Source of the DNA: Campylobacterales bacterium
GTDB lineage: Bacteria; Campylobacterota; Campylobacteria; Campylobacterales; Sulfurimonadaceae
Reading direction: 5' to 3'
Length of the DNA stretch: 64,000 bases
Assembly: GCA_014859655.1 (NCBI GenBank)
Contig: JACUTT010000001.1
Location: forward strand, 1 to 64,000
Part shown: piece after piece, positions 19,168-29,139 of the stretch
How positions within the stretch are numbered: position 1 is the first letter of the stretch
Layout: each line of letters opens with the position of its first letter
Translations under genes and position numbers: made by a program
The notes under the pieces: generated by a model
The model's database searches: none
Seen by the model: only the letters and a program-made list of their open reading frames with translations
Told to the model about the DNA's origin: nothing

Positions 19168-20213
19168 TGAGTTGGCTTGTCTCTTTACTCGTTCTCTCCT
19201 TTTTGATCTTTTTCCATGAGTTGGGACATTTTTTTGCGGCACGTGTGATGGGTGTGCGTGTAAAAGTCTTCAGCATAGGCTTTGGCAAAAAGATCGCCTC
19301 CTTTGAGTGGAAAAATACGCAGTGGCGCATCGCAATGATCCCACTTGGCGGCTACGTACAGATGAAGGGGCAGGACGATACCGACCCAACTGCACTAAGT
19401 CAGGACAGCGACTCTTATAATGTTAAAAAGCCATGGCAGAGGATCTTTATACTGCTTGCCGGTCCCTTTGCCAATTTTGTGCTGGCGCTTTTTCTTTTCT
19501 GGCTGATCGCCTTAGGCGGTCCGCAGGTGCTCTCGCCTGTGATCGGCGAGATCGTCAAAGATTCTCCGGCCCAGCAGGCCGGTTTGCAGAGCCAGGACAT
19601 CGTCACACAGATCAACGGCATAAAGATTGAGACTTGGGAGGAGATGGCCAAGGCGATCTCAGACTCTTCGGGTACACTCTCTATCGTCGTTGAACGTGAT
19701 AACTATCTTCAAAACTTCACTATCTCTCCGCAAATGCGCGAGGCCCGCAATGACTTCAACGAGAGCGTACAAAGACGGATGATAGGCATCGGTGCGGCAG
19801 GCGTCTCCAAGACCCTGGAGGTCGAAAACTCATTCAAGTATGCCTGGGACAAGACCGTCTGGGCCTCTACGCTTATCTTCGGAGGTGTTAAGCGGCTTAT
19901 CTTAGGAGATGTCCCGGCAAAAGAGCTCGGCGGGGTAATCAGCATCGTGACGATAACTGCCGACGCGAGTGCCCAGGGGTGGATGGCCGTTTTCTTTTTT
20001 GCCGCTTTGATCTCTGTAAACCTGGGAATTTTAAACCTCCTGCCTATTCCAGCACTCGACGGCGGGCATATCATGTTCAACCTCTATGAGATGATTTTTC
20101 GCCGCGCACCCAGCGAAGCAATGCTTGTGCGTCTGACCATTGGCGGATGGGTGCTGCTTATTGCGCTAATGGCTTTAGGGCTCTACAACGACATTACCCG
20201 ACTAATAGGATAA
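19164..20213 (+). CDS. rseP: RseP-family intramembrane zinc metalloprotease (site-2 protease)
   Basis: This 349-residue integral membrane protease has the zinc motif HELGH (18-22) in the first membrane helix, one PDZ domain (about 110-180, with AGLQSQDIVTQING) and the C-terminal LPIPALDGGH that provides the third ligand. Site-2 proteases cleave membrane-bound anti-sigma factors or signal-peptide remnants. It is co-transcribed with pgsA and, four bases downstream, yggS. Confidence 0.95.
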   Translation: MMSWLVSLLVLSFLIFFHELGHFFAARVMGVRVKVFSIGFGKKIASFEWKNTQWRIAMIPLGGYVQMKGQDDTDPTALSQDSDSYNVKKPWQRIFILLAGPFANFVLALFLFWLIALGGPQVLSPVIGEIVKDSPAQQAGLQSQDIVTQINGIKIETWEEMAKAISDSSGTLSIVVERDNYLQNFTISPQMREARNDFNESVQRRMIGIGAAGVSKTLEVENSFKYAWDKTVWASTLIFGGVKRLILGDVPAKELGGVISIVTITADASAQGWMAVFFFAALISVNLGILNLLPIPALDGGHIMFNLYEMIFRRAPSEAMLVRLTIGGWVLLIALMALGLYNDITRLIG

Positions 20214-20217
20214 AAAC

Positions 20218-20892
20218 ATGAACACAGAAGCATACAAGATTTACCTAGACGGCGTTATCCAGCGTGTAGAAAATGCGCGCATTTCACGCAGCGAGCATCA
20301 TATCGTCAAGATCGTCGCTGTCAGCAAATACTCAGATGAGGCGGAAATCAAAGCCTTGTATCAGATCGGGCAGCGTGCCTTTGGTGAGAACAAGGTTCAA
20401 GACCTCCTTGCCAAAAGCACAAACCTGAACGATCTTCCGCTGGAGTGGCACTTTATTGGTACCCTGCAAAAAAACAAGATCAACCAGCTTATCGACGCCG
20501 ATCCCTTCCTTTTTCAAAGCCTTGATTCGCTTGAGCTGGCACAGGCGCTTCAGCAGCGCCTTAAGATCAAGGAAGCGCGTATGGAGTGTCTGCTTCAGAT
20601 CAACTCGGCCAAAGAAGAGAGCAAAAGCGGCGTAATGCCCGAAATAGCCGCAGACATCTATGCGCAGATCAAAGAGAACTGCCCAAATATCACGCTCCGC
20701 GGCGTTATGAGCATCGGTGCGCATACTCAGGATCAAAAGATCATTCAAGAGAGCTTTGAGACAACGTACGGGATATTTAAGGGTCTTAAGGGAGCAGATA
20801 TCTGTTCTATGGGAATGAGCGGGGATTTTGAGCTTGCCATCAGATGCGGCTCAAATATGGTCCGCCTGGGCTCTATAATCTTTCCGAAATAG
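20218..20892 (+). CDS. YggS/PROSC-family PLP-binding protein
   Basis: This 224-residue protein folds like alanine racemase N-domain. The PLP lysine is Lys37 in AVSKYSD; FGENKVQDL, EWHFIGTLQKNK and the phosphate-binding GMSGDFELAIRCGSNMVR are diagnostic. The family maintains pyridoxal phosphate homeostasis and has no known enzymatic activity. It is the last gene of the pgsA-rseP-yggS run and convergent with the EAL protein gene. Confidence 0.94.
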   Translation: MNTEAYKIYLDGVIQRVENARISRSEHHIVKIVAVSKYSDEAEIKALYQIGQRAFGENKVQDLLAKSTNLNDLPLEWHFIGTLQKNKINQLIDADPFLFQSLDSLELAQALQQRLKIKEARMECLLQINSAKEESKSGVMPEIAADIYAQIKENCPNITLRGVMSIGAHTQDQKIIQESFETTYGIFKGLKGADICSMGMSGDFELAIRCGSNMVRLGSIIFPK

Positions 20893-20899
20893 TTTTTTT

Positions 20900-20926
20900 T
20901 TGCCACCCTAAGGTTGCCTTAGAGGG
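20900..20926. other. Hairpin between convergent genes
   Basis: CCACCCTAAGG and CCTTAGAGGG form an imperfect stem in the 37-base gap between the yggS and EAL-protein stops. A run of T precedes it on the plus strand. No T run follows it on either strand, so it is not a canonical intrinsic terminator, though it may still mark the shared 3' ends. Confidence 0.4.
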
Positions 20927-20929
20927 CAG

Positions 20930-22774
20930 TTAGACAGCGATGTTATTAGCTGATGACACCCGCTTAATATCTATCTGCGCACTCGCCTCGCCTATATACT
21001 CCCCTTGCGAATAGTCAATCCCGATCTCAAGAACCTTCTCTTGCAGCTGTTTCGTATCGACATGCTCTGCAATCGTCTCTGCACCGATCCGCTTGGCAAA
21101 GGCAACGATATTCTCAACGATCATTTGGTGCGAAAGATTGGTATCAAGGTTTTTAATAAACGAACTGTCTATCTTGATCGTCTTTGCTTCTGTACGGAGC
21201 AGGCGACTAAAGACAGACTGTTCAGCACCAAAATCACCCAGAGTGATATTGAAACCGCGTGAGCGCAAACCTTTGATCTGTACTAATGTTTCATGCTCTG
21301 CCTTGAGCGCAATATTTCCGATCACTTCAAGATAGACACGCTTGGGTTCAATATGATAATAATCACACTTATAGCTCAAAAACTCTTCCAGATAGTTTTC
21401 GTTAAAGTCCTGGGCCGAAACATTTAATGAAAATGCATAAGCCTTGGATTGGAAGTATTTGAATGCCTTGTCGATTATCACCCGCGTGATCTTAGTCGTC
21501 AATCCGGCCAATCGCACAGGGTCCGTCACGGCACTTGCATTCAGTATACCTCCCTCCTTGTCCAAGATATAACAAAGCGCTTCATACTTCTCTATACGGC
21601 CTGTTTTATTATTGTAAATGGGCTGATAGTAAGACATGACACGATCATTTTTAAGGGCATCCTTCACCGTCTGTATGCAGGTAAACGCGGCTCTTTGCTG
21701 CTGGACATATTTTGAATTGTTTTGAAAGACGACCAGCTGGCCTCCTCCTCTCTCTTTTGCTTCCTCAGAAGCTGTCTTGGCATGGATAAAGAGTCTGTTA
21801 TGCTCTCCCCTACCCATGCCTATAGAGAAGCTGATGTCAAACTCGATATCGCCGGCAAGCACCGGAGTCTCCTTGAACATTGCCATGATCTGCTGCGAGA
21901 GTATAAATTCCTGGTTGGATGTGGGGGAGAAGATCAAAACAACAAACTCATCCGCACTGATTCTAAACAGTTCTGTATTGCCAGGAAGAAAACGCTTTAA
22001 ACGCGATGCGGTCTCTTTGAGGACCCTGTTTCCATACCCCATGCCATAAAGTGTATTAATACTGTCAAAACGGTCAATGTCTATAAAAAGAAGCGCCTTG
22101 TTTCCGACTTTTGCTATCGCATCTCTCAGGGCGCGTGTGTTGCCCAGTCCCGTCAGGTCATCTTTGAGTCTGATCTGCTCGATATACAGCGCCTGCTCAT
22201 TCAAGCGCAACTGAAACTCCCGCTCCTGTCCAAGCAGACGCCCCAGACGTTTTTTTTCGTAGGTAAGCGCTTCGTTGAGTTTTTTTTCATTGGCTTCATA
22301 ATGTTCTTGAAGCTGTCGTTTCTGTGCCCTAATCTGCTCGGAAGCATTCACTTGTTGTGTTTTTTGCGCCGCGCTGTAAAGCTGTACACAGCTTTTGTAC
22401 ATACTCTCAAGAAGCATCTGCATATTAATGGGTTTTGGGATGAAGCCGTCAATGCCCATATTGCTCCACTGCAAAAGAGTCTCGGCATCACTTGTCTTTG
22501 AGATCACGATAAGGTGTTGTGCGGGAGAGATCTTTTTGATCTGTTCAACCATCGCTATAGCAGAATAGTTGGCAAGGTCTATCTCTGTAATGATAAGGTC
22601 ATGCTGATTTATCTTGTAATGGTTTAGCCCGTCATACCCGTCTGCTGCTTCGTCTACCTGCGCAAAAATACGGCTGAATGTTTTTACAAGCGACTGCCTA
22701 ACACTGCTGTCACCGTCGATACACAAAAGCTTTAGTTTTTTCGTATAGGGCAGCAGATCTTTAAATTCAACCAT
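20930..22774 (-). CDS. Receiver-GGDEF-EAL protein with degenerate motifs (paralogue 1)
   Basis: This protein is 614 residues from the ATG that follows GAGGT; the frame also stays open to a GTG at 22810. The order is a receiver domain (about 12-125), a coiled coil (about 138-200), a GGDEF domain (about 205-350) and an EAL domain (about 365-605). The receiver has the acidic pair and conserved Lys, but Glu replaces the phosphoacceptor Asp (TEID). The cyclase motif is SADEF, so cyclase activity is unlikely. The EAL motif is intact (YEAL), but the metal-binding DDFG is GDFG, so phosphodiesterase activity is doubtful. It probably works as a c-di-GMP or GTP sensor. It is adjacent to a paralogue. Confidence 0.85.
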   Translation of the reverse strand: MVEFKDLLPYTKKLKLLCIDGDSSVRQSLVKTFSRIFAQVDEAADGYDGLNHYKINQHDLIITEIDLANYSAIAMVEQIKKISPAQHLIVISKTSDAETLLQWSNMGIDGFIPKPINMQMLLESMYKSCVQLYSAAQKTQQVNASEQIRAQKRQLQEHYEANEKKLNEALTYEKKRLGRLLGQEREFQLRLNEQALYIEQIRLKDDLTGLGNTRALRDAIAKVGNKALLFIDIDRFDSINTLYGMGYGNRVLKETASRLKRFLPGNTELFRISADEFVVLIFSPTSNQEFILSQQIMAMFKETPVLAGDIEFDISFSIGMGRGEHNRLFIHAKTASEEAKERGGGQLVVFQNNSKYVQQQRAAFTCIQTVKDALKNDRVMSYYQPIYNNKTGRIEKYEALCYILDKEGGILNASAVTDPVRLAGLTTKITRVIIDKAFKYFQSKAYAFSLNVSAQDFNENYLEEFLSYKCDYYHIEPKRVYLEVIGNIALKAEHETLVQIKGLRSRGFNITLGDFGAEQSVFSRLLRTEAKTIKIDSSFIKNLDTNLSHQMIVENIVAFAKRIGAETIAEHVDTKQLQEKVLEIGIDYSQGEYIGEASAQIDIKRVSSANNIAV

Positions 22775-22916
22775 TTCACACCTCTTTTTCACGTTAAAAC
22801 ACAAGGACACCTCTAAAAACCCTAACTGCCTTCAGAGGTGCCCATAATTATGCCCAACGCTTACTCTGCCTGTACTTTAGCAGAGCTAAACCAATACAGA
22901 GTAAATTATAGACAAT
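22775..22916 (-). promoter_or_regulatory. Intergenic leader of the first EAL gene, with promoter and repeat copy
   Basis: This gap between the two EAL genes holds, on the minus strand, a TATAAT box (in GTCTATAATTTAC, about 22900) and then the short dispersed repeat at 22803-22839. The repeat would therefore lie in the 5' untranslated region and could fold into a hairpin ahead of the start codon. The promoter assignment is by motif only. Confidence 0.45.
22803..22839 (-). repeat. Short dispersed repeat, copy B
   Basis: This is 33 of 37 bases identical to positions 31-67 in opposite orientation. Here the arms extend to a perfect 7-bp inverted repeat (CACCTCT / AGAGGTG) with a 19-base loop. It lies in the leader of the receiver-GGDEF-EAL gene. 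Confidence 0.6.
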
Positions 22917-24485
22917 TTATATTTGTGCGGAAGGTTTTCCGATATAGAAGCCCTGAGAGTAGTCCACGCCCAGGCTCTTGACAAGGTCAAATAACTCCTG
23001 CGAATCCACATATTCGGCCACCGTCTTGGCGCCGATCTTTCTGGAAAAGTCTACGATGTTTTCAATGATTATTTTTGCCTTGCTGTCATTCAAAAGCTCT
23101 TGAATAAAATGGCCGTCGATCTTTAAAATCTGCGCGTGGATCTGCATCATCCGTGCAAAATTGGAGCCGTCCACACCGAAGTCATCTATGGAGATCTTGC
23201 ATCCGAGTGATCTGAGCGCCTCTATCTGTGGCAGACACCCTTTGGCCAATTCCGTGCTGATATTTTCCAGGACCTCGATATAGAGGCGCTCAGGCTCAAT
23301 GGCATACTGGTCGCATTTGTAGCTGATAAAATCAACCAAATACTCTTCCATAAAATCCTCATGCGTGACATTGATGGAAAAGGAGTGGCTCTTGTCCTTA
23401 AAATATTTGAAACTTTTGTCGATGACCAGGCGTGTGATATCGCACATCCTTCCGGCAAAGATCGCCGCGGGGATGAAGTCACTTGGCTGGTAGAGGCTTT
23501 TGTCCCTCTCCTCTATGCGACAAAGCACCTCGTATTTTGTTATCGCGCCGCTCAGGTTCTCCATGATGGGCTGGTAATGGACGACAAGCCTGTCTTCGCA
23601 GATCGCTTCTTGTATTATTTTTACCCATTTTATATGCTCTTTTTGTTCTTTAATAAAAATTGAGCCCTCGTTATAGCTAACGATGCGCTTGCCCTCTTTC
23701 GCTTCACACAGGGCGATGTCGGCTTTTTGGATAAGCTCTTCACCTGAGGCGATGCCGATGGCAGTATTGATTTTAAGCAAAAATCCGTTTACCTCTATAG
23801 GCGTTTGTTCAAAAAAGGATTTTAACTGCTGTGAAAGTATCTTTATCTGCGAAGGAGCCGGGTTACTGAGCAAAACAGAGAACTCGTCCTCGTTAGTATG
23901 ATAGAGCTCCGCATTGACGGGAAGATTGATCTTGATGGCGTCTCTAAACTCAAGTAGGACCTTTTCCGTGATCTGCGTGCCATAATAGATCTGAAAGGCT
24001 TTAAAATTGTGAAGAGAGAGCTTTAGAAGCGCATTGTGCCGGCTATTCTCTTTGAGCCTGTCTTTTAAGGCATTGAGGTTTCGGCAGGCACTCAGGGGAT
24101 CGATGTAGTAGATATCGTAAAATATCTCCTGCATGTTCAGATAGGAGGCTGCGCGGTAAAGTACGCGCTTGCACTCTTTTTCATCGAGCGGATTGAGCAA
24201 AATGGCATCTGCACCCGCCCGCAAAGACTGCATTACCGTCTTGGGATTGGAACTGCAGGCAATGACATAGCGTTCAGGAAGAAAGTGTTTTATCTTTTCC
24301 ATGACCTCCATGCTCTCGACATGTTCCATATCCAAAACCATAAAGTCATAGTTTCTAAGATGGGAAACGGAACCTATCGCCATACCCGAGGAGAAGAATT
24401 CGATCTTGTGTGCAAAATTTTCAAGTGATGTCTGGTGCGAAGGTGTCTGCAGATAGAGTATTCTGATCTTAGAGTAGCTGTTCAT
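22917..24485 (-). CDS. Receiver-like-GGDEF-EAL protein (paralogue 2)
   Basis: This 522-residue protein has the same domain order as its neighbour. Its receiver-like part (about 6-115) keeps an Asp at the phosphoacceptor site (LDME, Asp52), but lacks the acidic pair (LQTP) and the conserved Lys (LNPL). The cyclase motif is NEDEF (198-202), so it is probably inactive. The EAL domain reads EVL, with DDFG, the NV-x-x-x-DF asparagine, LKIDG lysine and AEYVD glutamate all present, so phosphodiesterase activity is plausible. The ribosome binding site GAAGG precedes the ATG. It is probably an old tandem duplication. Confidence 0.85.
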   Translation of the reverse strand: MNSYSKIRILYLQTPSHQTSLENFAHKIEFFSSGMAIGSVSHLRNYDFMVLDMEHVESMEVMEKIKHFLPERYVIACSSNPKTVMQSLRAGADAILLNPLDEKECKRVLYRAASYLNMQEIFYDIYYIDPLSACRNLNALKDRLKENSRHNALLKLSLHNFKAFQIYYGTQITEKVLLEFRDAIKINLPVNAELYHTNEDEFSVLLSNPAPSQIKILSQQLKSFFEQTPIEVNGFLLKINTAIGIASGEELIQKADIALCEAKEGKRIVSYNEGSIFIKEQKEHIKWVKIIQEAICEDRLVVHYQPIMENLSGAITKYEVLCRIEERDKSLYQPSDFIPAAIFAGRMCDITRLVIDKSFKYFKDKSHSFSINVTHEDFMEEYLVDFISYKCDQYAIEPERLYIEVLENISTELAKGCLPQIEALRSLGCKISIDDFGVDGSNFARMMQIHAQILKIDGHFIQELLNDSKAKIIIENIVDFSRKIGAKTVAEYVDSQELFDLVKSLGVDYSQGFYIGKPSAQI

Positions 24486-24588
24486 TGTTACCTTCGCTGA
24501 AGCTGTCTTGTTTTAGCGTAAAAGCCAGGGCAGTTAATCAAGAAAGGATATATAAAAAAGGTCAATCAAAAGAAAACAGGGACAAAAA

Positions 24589-24816
24589 TCAACTTTTTTC
24601 TTTGATCATGGCAAGATAGAGCTCTTCCACCTTTGTTCTTGCCCACGGCGTCTTTCGCAGAAACTTGAGACTGGAGCTGATGGTAGGGTCGTTGTAAAAA
24701 CAGCGGATCTCTATGTGCGAGTAGAGCTCTCTCCAGCCGTAATGCGCGACCAGACGCTCCAAGATCATCTGCAGGGTAATGCCGTGAAGCGGGTTGTTTG
24801 CATGTTGATCGCTCAT
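24589..24816 (-). CDS. VF530-family (DUF2132) DNA-binding-like protein
   Basis: This 75-residue protein shows the VF530 pattern: [48 protein letters not shown], then VEELY near the end. The family is small, helical and of unclear role, and has been described as DNA-binding from structure. The frame at 24566-24895 on the same strand is an out-of-frame shadow. The gene stands alone, with about 100-base gaps either side. Confidence 0.85.
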
Positions 24817-24963
24817 CTGCTTCCTTTTTTAAAGACAAAGTTTTTATAGGTGGAATTTTAGCAAATTGTTGATTAAAGATCGCAGTGCCAGTCATGGAAG
24901 CTATAGTGCAAAGTAAATTTTACTATTAGCAAGCTTTGCTATAATGCCAAAAAAAGGAAAATT

Positions 24964-25242
24964 ATGTCATTTTCACTCATTCACAACCAAGATGCAAACC
25001 AATACGAATACCACATCGAAGGCCACATCTGCCATATCACCTACGAAGAAAGCGGCAACAAAATGCACCTGACCCACACCATCGTACCCGATGCATTAGG
25101 CGGGCGCGGCATCGCGAAACAGCTCTTGATCGATGTCCTGGAAGAGATCAGAAAATGCGGTAAAAAAGCCGTTGCGGAGTGCTCATACATCGTCAACTTT
25201 GAGAGTAAAAATCCTGATTATGCGGATGTGTTTGTAAAGTAA
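24964..25242 (+). CDS. Small GNAT-type N-acetyltransferase (YidJ/Acetyltransf_CG family)
   Basis: This 92-residue compact GNAT protein has the central VPDALGGRGIAKQLLIDVL acetyl-CoA loop and the family's late Cys in AECSYIVNF, followed by NPDYADVF. These minimal acetyltransferases are common in bacteria and their targets are unknown. AAGGAAA precedes the start, and a strong hairpin terminator follows 14 bases after the stop. Confidence 0.87.
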   Translation: MSFSLIHNQDANQYEYHIEGHICHITYEESGNKMHLTHTIVPDALGGRGIAKQLLIDVLEEIRKCGKKAVAECSYIVNFESKNPDYADVFVK

Positions 25243-25256
25243 CAAAAAGATAATTT

Positions 25257-25284
25257 ACAAGCCACTAGCAAAGGTGGCTTTTGT
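25257..25284 (+). terminator. Terminator after the small acetyltransferase gene
   Basis: AAGCCAC and GTGGCTT form a perfect stem with an 8-base loop, followed by TTGTAG. The fit for the plus-strand gene is good. Confidence 0.65.
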
Positions 25285-25581
25285 AGTTTATATACAATTT
25301 TATTTGTAATTTCAGACTCATTAGTAGGATCATTTTTTGTAAAAGCAATCCCATTTGTATCATCAAGATAGATATTTAGAAAACTTAAAGAGTGATGCAA
25401 TTGCAAGGAGTCTAGCAAGGAAGCGTATTTGTGCCCCTCAGGGCACATCGGTACATGACGAACGTAACGACGCAGCAAGTGCGTCGCTTCTGGCACTAAA
25501 TACCGACACCCCCTGTCGCTCGTGTGTCCTACGCCATTTAAGAGCATAGGATGAAAGCAAAAATGGGGTGATTTGAGTTTT
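25285..25581. other. Hairpin-rich intergenic segment with a possible gene remnant
   Basis: About 300 bases between convergent genes hold no intact gene. Three perfect hairpins stand in a row: GTGCCC-CTCA-GGGCAC (25431-25446), CGACGCA-GCAAG-TGCGTCG (25468-25486) and CGACA-CCCCC-TGTCG (25504-25518). On the minus strand, 25290-25400 is open and reads like protein (LNIYLDDTNGIAFTK), suggesting a decayed coding fragment. No start, ribosome binding site or family is recognisable. It could be a structured RNA, a dispersed repeat or debris from a lost gene. Confidence 0.4.
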
Positions 25582-28173
25582 TTATACGGCTTTTATTTTT
25601 ACGCCGTACTTCTCTTCGGCTACCGTACGCTCTTCGAGGTGGTAATCTTTAATCTCGTTAAAATTGAGATATTTGTAAACCTCTTCCGTCTTTCCGGCAA
25701 GTTTTGCAGGAACGATGTCCATGTACTCTTCTACCGTAGGAATACGGCCCAGCTTGGAGCACACCGCAGCAAGCTCAGCACTTCCTAAGTAGACCTGAGT
25801 TCCTTTTCCAAGACGGTTGTCGAAGTTACGCGTTGAGGTAGAAAATACCGTCGATCCGACACGTGCACTCGCCTGGTTGCCCATACAGAGTGAACATCCC
25901 GGCACTTCGGTCTGCGCTTCGATCGCTTTGAAAACGTCGTAGTAGCCTTCGTTGATCAACTGCTGCTCATCCATACGAGTCGGTGGAACGATCCAGAACT
26001 TCTCAACAGCAACCTTGCCTTCTCCACGCATAACTTCACCGGCCGCACGGTAGTGACCGATGTTTGTCATACAAGAACCCAAGAATACTTCGTCTATTTT
26101 CTCACCCGCGACTTCGCTTAGAAGTTTAACGTTGTCCGGATCGTTTGGACAGGCAAGGATCGGCTCTGTTACTTCGTTTAGATCGATCTCGATGACTGCT
26201 GCATACTCAGCGTCAGCATCTGGCTGCATCAATGACGGCTTAGCCACCCACTCCCTCATCTTATCTGCACGACGCTGCAGTGTACGTGAATCTTCGTAGC
26301 CGTCAGCGATCATAGACTCGATCAGCGTGATGTTTGACTTTAGGTACTCAACTACCGGTGCTTCATTAAGAAGTACTGTGCAAGCCGCAGCCGATCGCTC
26401 TGCAGATGCATCCGAAAGCTCAAACGCCTGCTCAGCCTTAAGCTCAGGAAGACCTTCGATCTCCAGGATACGTCCGTTGAAAATGTTTTTCTTGCCTTTT
26501 TTCTCAACCGTCAACAGACCTTGCTGGATCGCATAGTAAGGGATGGCATTTACAAGGTCACGCAGAGTGATACCCGGCTGCAATTCGCCTTTGAAACGTA
26601 CAAGTACAGACTCAGGCATTGTAAGCGGCATTGAACCCGTAACTGCAGCGAAGGCAACGATACCTGAACCACCCGGAAAAGAGATACCAATAGGGAAACG
26701 CGTATGGCTGTCCGCACCCGTACCTACGGTATCCGGAAGTGTCAAGCGGTTTAGCCATGAGTGGATAACACCATCTCCCGGGCGAAGTGCTACACCTGAG
26801 CGGTTAGCGATAAAGTCAGGAAGCGTGTGGTGCATCACAACGTCAGAAGGCTTTGGGTATGCCGCGGTGTGACAGAAAGACTGCATAACCAGGTCTGCAG
26901 AAAAACCAAGTGCTGCAAGCTCTTTGATCTCATCACGTGTCATTGGACCTGTAGTGTCCTGAGAACCAACCGTTGTTGTCACCGGCTCAACATACATGCC
27001 CGGACGAACACCTGTCATACCGCATGCCTTACCCACCATCTTTTGAGCAAGCGTATATCCCTTGCCTGTATCAGCCGGTTGCTCAGCGGTCAAGAATGCA
27101 TCTGATGCACCCATGCCGAGAACACCACGTGCCTTAGATGTCAAACCGCGACCGATGATCAAAGGAATACGACCGCCTGCACGCACTTCGTCAGTGATGG
27201 TGTTGGGGTTAAGTTTAAAAGTAGCGACACATGCGCCGTTCTTGTGTGCCTCACCCTTGTACGGATAGATCGTCACGACATCGCCTGTCTCCATAGAAGA
27301 GACGTCCATCTCCAACGGCAGTGCGCCCGAATCTTCACAGGTAGCGAAGAAGATAGGAGCGATAATACCGCCGATAACCACGCCGCCGGTACGCTTATTT
27401 GGAACACCAGGGATGTCCTCTCCCATGTGCCACTGTACCGAGTTGACGCCTGATTTGCGGCTTGAGCCTGTTCCGACAACATCACCGACATAGGCGATAG
27501 GGTGACCGGCTTTTTTCAGCGATTTGATCGTGTTGATCGGGTCTTCCATCTTTGAAGCAAGCATGGAGTTTGCATGCAATGGAATGTCTGAACGGGTAAA
27601 CGCCTCTGAGGCAGGAGAAAGGTCATCTGTGTTAGTTTCGCCGGGAACTTTAAATACCGTCACCGTGATCTCTTTAGCCAAGGCCGGCTTGGAAGTGAAC
27701 CACTCGGCATTTGCCCACGAAGTCATCACTTCTGTAGCGGCAGCATTGCCGGCCTTGTGAAGTTCTTCAACATCATTGAAGGCATCATAAACAAGAAGCG
27801 TATGTTTCAAAGCATCTTTGGCTGCCTCTACGACTTCTGCACTGTTTGAGGTCAGACCGTCAATCATAGGCTTCACATTGTAGCCACCGAGCATCATACC
27901 CATGATCTCGATCGCTTTTTCAGGAGTTATGCTGTCGACTTTAACTTTTTCAGAGGCTACATCGTTTAAAAATGCCGCTTTAACATAGGCAGCATCATCA
28001 ACACCCGGTGAAACACGGTTAGTCAAAAGATCTAAGTTGAAAGCTGCATCACCCTCGCCCGCTTTGATCATTTCGATGAGTGCCGCTGTCTGCTCTGCAG
28101 AAAGTGGAAGCGGCGGAACGCCCAATGCGTCGCGTTGTGCTACGTGTGCTTTGTATTCTTCAATAAAAGACAT
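25582..28173 (-). CDS. acnB: Aconitate hydratase B
   Basis: This 863-residue bifunctional aconitase B interconverts citrate and isocitrate in the TCA cycle (oxidative or reductive). The 4Fe-4S ligands are in GSCMTNIGH and CSLCMGN. The N-terminal HEAT-like domain ([17 protein letters not shown]) and the swivel domain ([12 protein letters not shown]) precede the catalytic core, as is usual for AcnB. An AGGAG ribosome binding site and a TATAAT box lie upstream. It is monocistronic, and length and domain order are normal. Confidence 0.97.
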
Positions 28174-28318
28174 AGAATCTCCTGGTATATTTTTGTGAGA
28201 TTATAACAGAGATATCGCTCTTTAGCAGCTATGTGTTACAAAAGTAAACACTCTTATTTTTTTGTATGTGTATATTAGTAACAAACTGAAACTTCTTATT
28301 TTTACTTATAGAGGCAGA
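28174..28318 (-). promoter_or_regulatory. acnB promoter region with inverted repeat
   Basis: On the minus strand a TATAAT box (28200-28205) lies about 27 bases before the acnB ATG. Upstream, at 28234-28250, is a near-palindrome that reads TGTTACAAAAGTAAACA on the plus strand. A related half-site, TTAGTAACA, occurs near 28275. The spacing, about 29 bases upstream of the -10 box, would suit a transcription factor site, but the regulator is unknown. Confidence 0.4.
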
Positions 28319-28876
28319 CTATTTCCGCCTGAGCAAAACATCCGAAGCGATCTTCTGCGAAGGACCATTGAGGTTTTGCGCAGCCCACTGCAGGTAAGGT
28401 GTCGGGAGCTCTTCCCATTTCTCGCCCTTGTGCTTTCCGAACATAACTGTTTCCTCATGCTTAGGCGGGACTTTGCTGCTCTTACGTTCAGAGAGTTCGT
28501 TTAAGGCGATCTGCCTGTCTTGCGAGTTGAGATTTTGAGAGAGCCATTTAAGATAATCCTCGTCAAGATCAGCCCACTTCTGCCCTTTGAACTTTCCGAA
28601 GTTGATCGTCGCATCTTGGGAGATCTTGAAACGCTGAGGCTCCTCTTCTGTGACAAAAACCTCCATCCCTTTCAGATTGAAGAGTTCCTGCAGATACTGC
28701 ACCTCTATGCGTTTGGGGATAACAAGAGACTCGCTGCTGTAATCCAACTGTCCGCTTCGCGCAGCCGCAAAGGCTTCAAGTTCCTGCAGGGTCTGTACAG
28801 AGAGTTCACTGATATTTTCTATCTTACAGCGAAAAAAACGAGGGTACTGGGTGTAGGAGAGTTTAATCACAGGCAC
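28319..28876 (-). CDS. Tandem DUF3820-like protein
   Basis: This 185-residue protein has a duplicated motif: INFGKFKGQKWADLDEDYLKWL (about 98-119) and VMFGKHKGEKWEELPTPYLQWA (about 143-164). This FGK-x-KG-x-x-W-x-x-L-x-x-x-YL-x-W pattern is that of DUF3820 (once linked to quorum-sensing-regulated virulence factors). The N-terminal 90 residues are unassigned. The start is GTG. The biochemical role of the family is unknown. Confidence 0.7.
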   Translation of the reverse strand: MPVIKLSYTQYPRFFRCKIENISELSVQTLQELEAFAAARSGQLDYSSESLVIPKRIEVQYLQELFNLKGMEVFVTEEEPQRFKISQDATINFGKFKGQKWADLDEDYLKWLSQNLNSQDRQIALNELSERKSSKVPPKHEETVMFGKHKGEKWEELPTPYLQWAAQNLNGPSQKIASDVLLRRK

Positions 28877-28893
28877 TCTTTTTCAAAAAGAGG

Positions 28894-29139
28894 CTACTGC
28901 TGTTTTATGCGGACAAATTTATCCGTTGTCGGGTCGAGCACATAGAGTATCGACGGGTTTGTCTCGTCGCCTTTTAGGACCTTATATACCCTGCCTTTAA
29001 GTTCAAAGATCTTTTCCATCTCGGTCTCATCAAAGACAATAGGCTTGTCGCATTCACAAGGCTTAAGAAGATGTTTTTTTGGTGCATCCGCTGACAAAGT
29101 GAAGGCAAGTGGCAGTAACAAAAATAGTGTTTTTTTCAT
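28894..29139 (-). CDS. Small exported protein, unknown function
   Basis: This 81-residue protein has a clear Sec signal peptide (MKKTLFLLLPLAFTLSA), giving a mature periplasmic peptide of about 64 residues with a CEC motif and a charged C-terminal region. The start overlaps the ftsK stop (ATGA), so it is co-translated with ftsK. No family is recognised. Confidence 0.65.
   Translation of the reverse strand: MKKTLFLLLPLAFTLSADAPKKHLLKPCECDKPIVFDETEMEKIFELKGRVYKVLKGDETNPSILYVLDPTTDKFVRIKQQ

Follow-up and report, generated by a model that had tools for sequence, protein, structure and literature searches.

Two adjoining open reading frames of 626 and 522 amino acids lie on the minus strand of a 64,000-nucleotide stretch of Campylobacterales DNA (the window), flanked by acnB and yggS. 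P2 comes first in transcription and P1 second, with a gap of 106 nucleotides between the limits of the two frames. The features at the locus are as follows, relatives being cited by G numbers.

20930..22810, minus strand: P1, 626 amino acids; receiver (acceptor aspartate changed to glutamate), long coil, degenerate GGDEF (SADEF), EAL.
20987..21670, minus strand: EAL domain of P1, limits from the domain search.
21236-21238, 21317-21319 and 21569-21571, minus strand: altered codons 525, 498 and 414 of P1, respectively.
21743..22162, minus strand: GGDEF domain of P1, with a degenerate A-site (SADEF) that is old in its family.
22805..22843, minus strand: 39-nucleotide palindrome with a T-rich tail in the P2-P1 gap, about 30 nucleotides before the likely P1 start.
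22917..24485, minus strand: P2, 522 amino acids; pseudo-receiver, degenerate GGDEF (NEDEF), EAL; predicted probable c-di-GMP phosphodiesterase.
22932..23618, minus strand: EAL domain of P2, with a full catalytic residue set and the loop 6 sequence DFGVDGSN.
23685..24074, minus strand: GGDEF domain of P2, with a degenerate A-site (NEDEF).
24589..24816, minus strand: VF530-family gene upstream of P2, also present in G024 (81% identical).

The start of P1 is more likely the ATG of MVEF at about 22774, where several relatives align, than the GTG at 22810, from which P1 residues are numbered here. A small GNAT-type gene (PF14542) at 24964-25242 on the plus strand was not found in the 17 kb stretch of G024 around the pair. 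No RNA element reached the Rfam cut-offs near the pair within 20000-29000.

The receiver-GGDEF-EAL architecture that both genes had been predicted to share is recovered by Pfam, with the receiver of P2 below the cut-off (20.8 versus 30.2 bits). Response_reg matches both proteins, GGDEF matches P1 with an E-value of 1.1e-18 and P2 with 8.1e-12, and EAL matches P1 with 8.7e-48 and P2 with 7.3e-57 (192.9 bits). Single-chain AlphaFold models, based on input alignments of 18 sequences for P1 and nine for P2, consist of three domains each (mean pLDDT 83.8 and pTM 0.56 for P1, 86.4 and 0.61 for P2); the N-terminal domain of the P2 model is (beta/alpha)5-like, and the EAL fold of P2 is supported by Pfam, the predicted model and Foldseek. 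Between the receiver and GGDEF domains, the models place an 85-residue helix (130-214) in P1 and a linker of 26 residues (helix 102-127) in P2. The best sequence match of both proteins is the PAS-GGDEF-EAL protein RbdA (PA0861) of Pseudomonas aeruginosa (E-values 1.7e-38 for P2 and 2.3e-30 for P1), also the top Foldseek match for both models, with which they share the GGDEF-EAL order. RbdA has a PAS input and, in the alignment, an intact GGDEF motif, whereas P1 and P2 combine a receiver-type input with a degenerate GGDEF domain.

As anticipated in the original prediction, the GGDEF motif is lost in both genes: the A-site GG(D/E)EF of diguanylate cyclases is replaced by SADEF in P1 and NEDEF in P2. 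SADEF is found in every P1 copy of the genus that covers the site, and TADEF in most single-copy relatives; judging from these motifs, the cyclase activity of both domains would have been gone long ago. Neither receiver contains the full set of acceptor aspartate, acidic pair, threonine or serine, and lysine. P1 of the window keeps the serine and the lysine and has glutamate at the acceptor position, as in all five readable genomes of the genus (the window genome, G024, G034, G042 and G006), and the second genus with a tandem pair has aspartate there; P2 keeps the aspartate and lacks the acidic pair and the lysine. Both receivers would thus be poor or unable phosphate acceptors, which would make control by an ordinary histidine kinase unlikely. 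Among the translated neighbouring reading frames, judged by eye, no cognate kinase was noticed beside the pair.

The EAL domain of P2 carries the motifs YEVLCR, NVT, EVLEN, DDFG, LKID, VAE and SQG and contains all the catalytic residues, that is, the set ExLxR, N, ExxE, DDFG, K, E and Q. The letters EVL had been taken as a loss of EAL, a view that we discard, since YEVLCR is a complete ExLxR motif and EVLxR is common among relatives with full catalytic sets. The retention of DDFG and of the remaining metal residues in P2 is borne out by the complete motifs, and all the P2 EAL domains read, including those of relatives, keep the catalytic residues. Loop 6 (DFGVDGSN) departs from DFG(T/A)GYSS, a consensus that is common but not strictly required. 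The proposal that P2 kept phosphodiesterase activity is therefore upheld as far as the necessary residues are concerned, the exception being a canonical loop 6: on its sequence, P2 is probably active as a c-di-GMP phosphodiesterase, and it would hydrolyse c-di-GMP perhaps weakly because of the odd loop.

The same loop is the basis of an alternative that we regard as distinctly unlikely, namely that P1 and P2 are both weak or inactive and P2, too, is a receptor. The loop of RbdA, which by sequence is the nearest relative with a solved structure, is also off consensus (DDFCAGMSS), and RbdA is active; this, with the retention of catalytic residues in all P2 EAL domains read, argues against the alternative. 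In its favour, activity can be reduced when loop 6 is degenerate, according to the excerpted text of PMC10333796, and FimX likewise has EVL. The likeness to FimX, in the portion of PMC3527489 consulted, extends from EVL to a degenerate GGDEF domain and an N-terminal receiver domain, but FimX is without several catalytic residues, all of which P2 keeps.

The EAL domain of P1 in the window reads YEALCY, EVIGN and GDFG and does not contain the full catalytic residue set. The original prediction was right that P1 keeps the letters EAL and has GDFG for DDFG (D525G, the first aspartate of the motif) but missed two further losses, those of the ExLxR arginine (R414Y) and the loop-6 glutamate (E498G). 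Loop 6 is off DFG(T/A)GYSS in P1 as well, and the pocket residues E410, N463, E495, D526, K546, E582 and Q602 are retained. The roles of single EAL residues are general background to this comparison. They agree with what is given in parts of PMC12943098 and PMC2994820. With three such losses, P1 of the window is very probably inactive as a phosphodiesterase, as far as its sequence can tell.

Among the sequences compared, all three losses are private to the window genome. In the alignment, R414 and D525 are retained in 17 of 17 other P1-type sequences, and E498 in 14 of the 17 (glutamine in two, lysine in one) and in all five congeners; P1 of G024, 88% identical to that of the window, has the intact set. 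The idea that "complementary" decay characterises the pair is not supported, since P1 and P2 of the relatives keep ExLxR and DDFG, the exception being two of the 11 single-copy relatives, G084 and G135, which have IDNF for DDFG; losses confined to one genome indicate that the apparent complementarity is recent and not a design of the pair. G084 (L091 7289-9037) and G135 (L092 7620-9377) carry acnB-linked P1 orthologs that group together in the tree, and IDNF is therefore probably one separate loss.

The original suggestion that one protein became a sensor, understood here as P1 regulating P2 in the manner of a FimX/LapD-type c-di-GMP sensor, now appears highly improbable. The EAL fold and the several pocket residues listed above are compatible with it, but R414Y, itself private to the window genome, removes the arginine of ExLxR, the motif that decides whether inactive EAL domains bind the ligand, according to the excerpts of PMC10333796. 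ExLxR is needed for a FimX- or LapD-type receptor and is the binding motif of FimX (same excerpts); P1 of the window, with EALCY, is without it. LapD shares the GGDEF-EAL fold with the models of P1 and P2, but it is a degenerate receptor, whereas P1 of the window has lost ExLxR and the EAL domain of P2 is not degenerate; by Pfam, no membrane-type input domain is present in P1 or P2. In the loss of catalysis and probably of the ligand, P1 of the window resembles the CsrD-type and EAL-only proteins that do not use c-di-GMP (PMC10333796, in part), but these have established other functions and the P1 losses are limited to one genome.

The genus is represented in our collection by six genomes, the window genome included. 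Both genes were expected to occur side by side in relatives, and they do, the tandem order being present in five of the six and in two genomes of a second genus. Whole pairs occur in the window genome, G024, G034 and G042 and, in the second genus, in G008 and G026; homology and tandem conservation of P1 and P2 exceed chance. The pair is broken in two of the six genomes. In G006 the genes adjoin and are split over two contig ends, with an in-frame stop after the receiver of P1 and a frameshift in P2. In G048 there is a deletion-like loss: neither P2 nor the first half of P1 is present, and the P1 remnant, which starts at about residue 350, adjoins a gene whose G034 relative sits upstream of P2. 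These breaks may be real or may be assembly faults. Absence of one gene from close relatives, which had been named as an argument against a pair, was thus found in part, P2 being present in five of six genomes and missing in G048, a fragmented assembly. In G034 (L077 10709-13928), genes for an LRR protein, an exonuclease and an MFS transporter lie between P2 and acnB, and by eye LRR and exonuclease-like genes precede the P1 remnant of G048.

Outside the tandem genera, a single P1-type gene, with no P2 found alongside, often lies next to acnB (G009, G015, G084, G092, G104, G122 and G135). Of the 151 genomes of the family, 18 contain P1-type matches and seven contain P2-type matches with E-values under 1e-100. 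In the tree, P1 of both tandem genera groups with the acnB-linked single genes and P2 falls outside; the P2 sequences of the two genera form no single supported clade in it, which is compatible with one or two origins of P2. P1 and P2 would go back to an ancient duplication in which a receiver-GGDEF-EAL phosphodiesterase gene was copied, with P1 the presumed ortholog of the gene beside acnB in several genera.

Several measures bear on how P1 of the window has evolved. It breaks four otherwise-invariant EAL columns (W378, R414, D525 and L596), compared to none in any of the five relatives nearest to it and zero to seven in twelve more distant ones, and in the GGDEF-EAL tree its branch is about twice as long as that of G024 (0.093 versus 0.047). 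Of the 34 EAL positions at which it differs from its nearest relative, three are among 11 functional sites, which is no more than random placement gives (hypergeometric P = 0.19) and fits a loss of the normal protection of functional sites rather than targeted change. Compared to G024, dN/dS is 0.08 for the whole gene and 0.11 for the EAL domain, at a dS of 0.8 and with the frame intact, and polarised counts of amino-acid to silent changes (19:19 on the window branch, 13:15 on that of G024) reveal, on inspection, no clear excess of the former. P1 as a whole is under purifying selection; therefore, either the loss happened recently or P1 is maintained for some other purpose.

We consider it highly improbable that the three changes are errors of assembly or the product of a strain mixture. 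The window genome is a draft assembly of 85 contigs, which can hold base errors, and the restriction of three conserved-site changes to a single genome would be in keeping with such faults, but the frame is intact and at least four base changes are spread over about 335 bases. The AT-to-GC lean of the P1 changes is common to neighbouring genes and G024, which leaves no base-error signature in P1, and the silent divergence of P1 is normal for the region. The suspicion that P1 stands out by its silent divergence from G024 was dismissed: the outlier is P2, with a pS of 0.745 compared to 0.41-0.52 in eleven other genes (0.49 in P1). Nucleotide identity to G024 is only about 0.71-0.80 between roughly 22.75 and 24.75 kb, in P2 and the stretch preceding it, a divergence far above that of neighbouring genes and chiefly at silent sites. 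The simplest reading is that P2 was likely replaced by an allele from a congener not sampled here.

The palindrome between the genes has the arms GGGCACCTCT and AGAGGTGYCC, and its pattern occurs without mismatch at four places in the window genome; a partial copy lies at 33-65, at the left end of the window. The pattern is absent from G024, G006 and G048, has two copies with a different loop in both G034 and G042, and was not seen in the P2-P1 gaps of the five relatives read. We regard it as a dispersed repeat, REP- or MITE-like, and possibly a terminator or attenuator for P1.

Intact frame and low dN/dS (0.08), together with a tandem order kept in two genera, are also what would be expected if P1 were a pseudoenzyme maintained for protein contact, pairing by its EAL or GGDEF faces with P2 or another GGDEF/EAL protein and setting its activity without binding c-di-GMP; hetero-contacts between degenerate and active GGDEF/EAL proteins of E. 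coli are described in parts of PMC5635695. We consider this unlikely, although the least so of the alternatives. P1 of the congeners is catalytically equipped and reveals no ancestral pseudoenzyme role, the linkers of 85 and 26 residues in the models would make full-length parallel coil pairing unlikely, and the pair is broken in two of the six genomes. In a more specific version, to which we give very little credence, P2 was replaced by the allele of a more distant congener, the repeat was inserted between P2 and P1, and P1, though still folded, then lost its active site and turned into a catalytically dead subunit tuning the new P2; if true, a pseudoenzyme partnership of P1 and P2 would have been caught at birth.

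The explanation that we favour, and hold to be reasonably probable, is that P2 functions as a phosphodiesterase, if possibly a weak one, and that P1 of the window is a spare one in early decay, rather than a dedicated sensor. In the window genome alone, P1 would recently have lost a metal-binding aspartate, the glutamate of loop 6 and the ligand-gripping arginine, and with these three losses it most likely does not cleave or bind c-di-GMP well. The sequences, their conservation, the privacy of the losses and the intact frame are observed, and from them we infer the enzyme activities and the redundancy. In support are the private losses, the four broken invariant columns versus none, the longer branch, the pair breaks elsewhere in the genus, the terminator-like repeat just before P1 in the window genome and not in the five relatives read, the complete catalytic set of P2, and other EAL genes of the genome that could cover the loss of P1. 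Against it stand the low dN/dS, the intact frame, the lack of a clear amino-acid excess, the value of P = 0.19 at functional sites, and distant P1-type sequences that break up to seven invariant columns without being called decayed; purifying selection and unenriched losses thus leave room for a kept, non-catalytic role of P1.

The window genome has 27 GGDEF and 15 EAL matches (fragments, P1 and P2 included) and one borderline PilZ match, and most of its c-di-GMP receptors are therefore probably of kinds other than PilZ. GGDEF/EAL paralogs commonly lose their activity, and degenerate GGDEF-EAL paralogs and hetero-contacts are already known (PMC5635695 and PMC10333796, each in part); a search of openly licensed PMC papers found no report of the P1/P2 pair. 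Motif losses of one genome should not be taken as the design of a gene pair, and the near-identical, intact ortholog in G024 offers a close natural control for the first steps of EAL inactivation.
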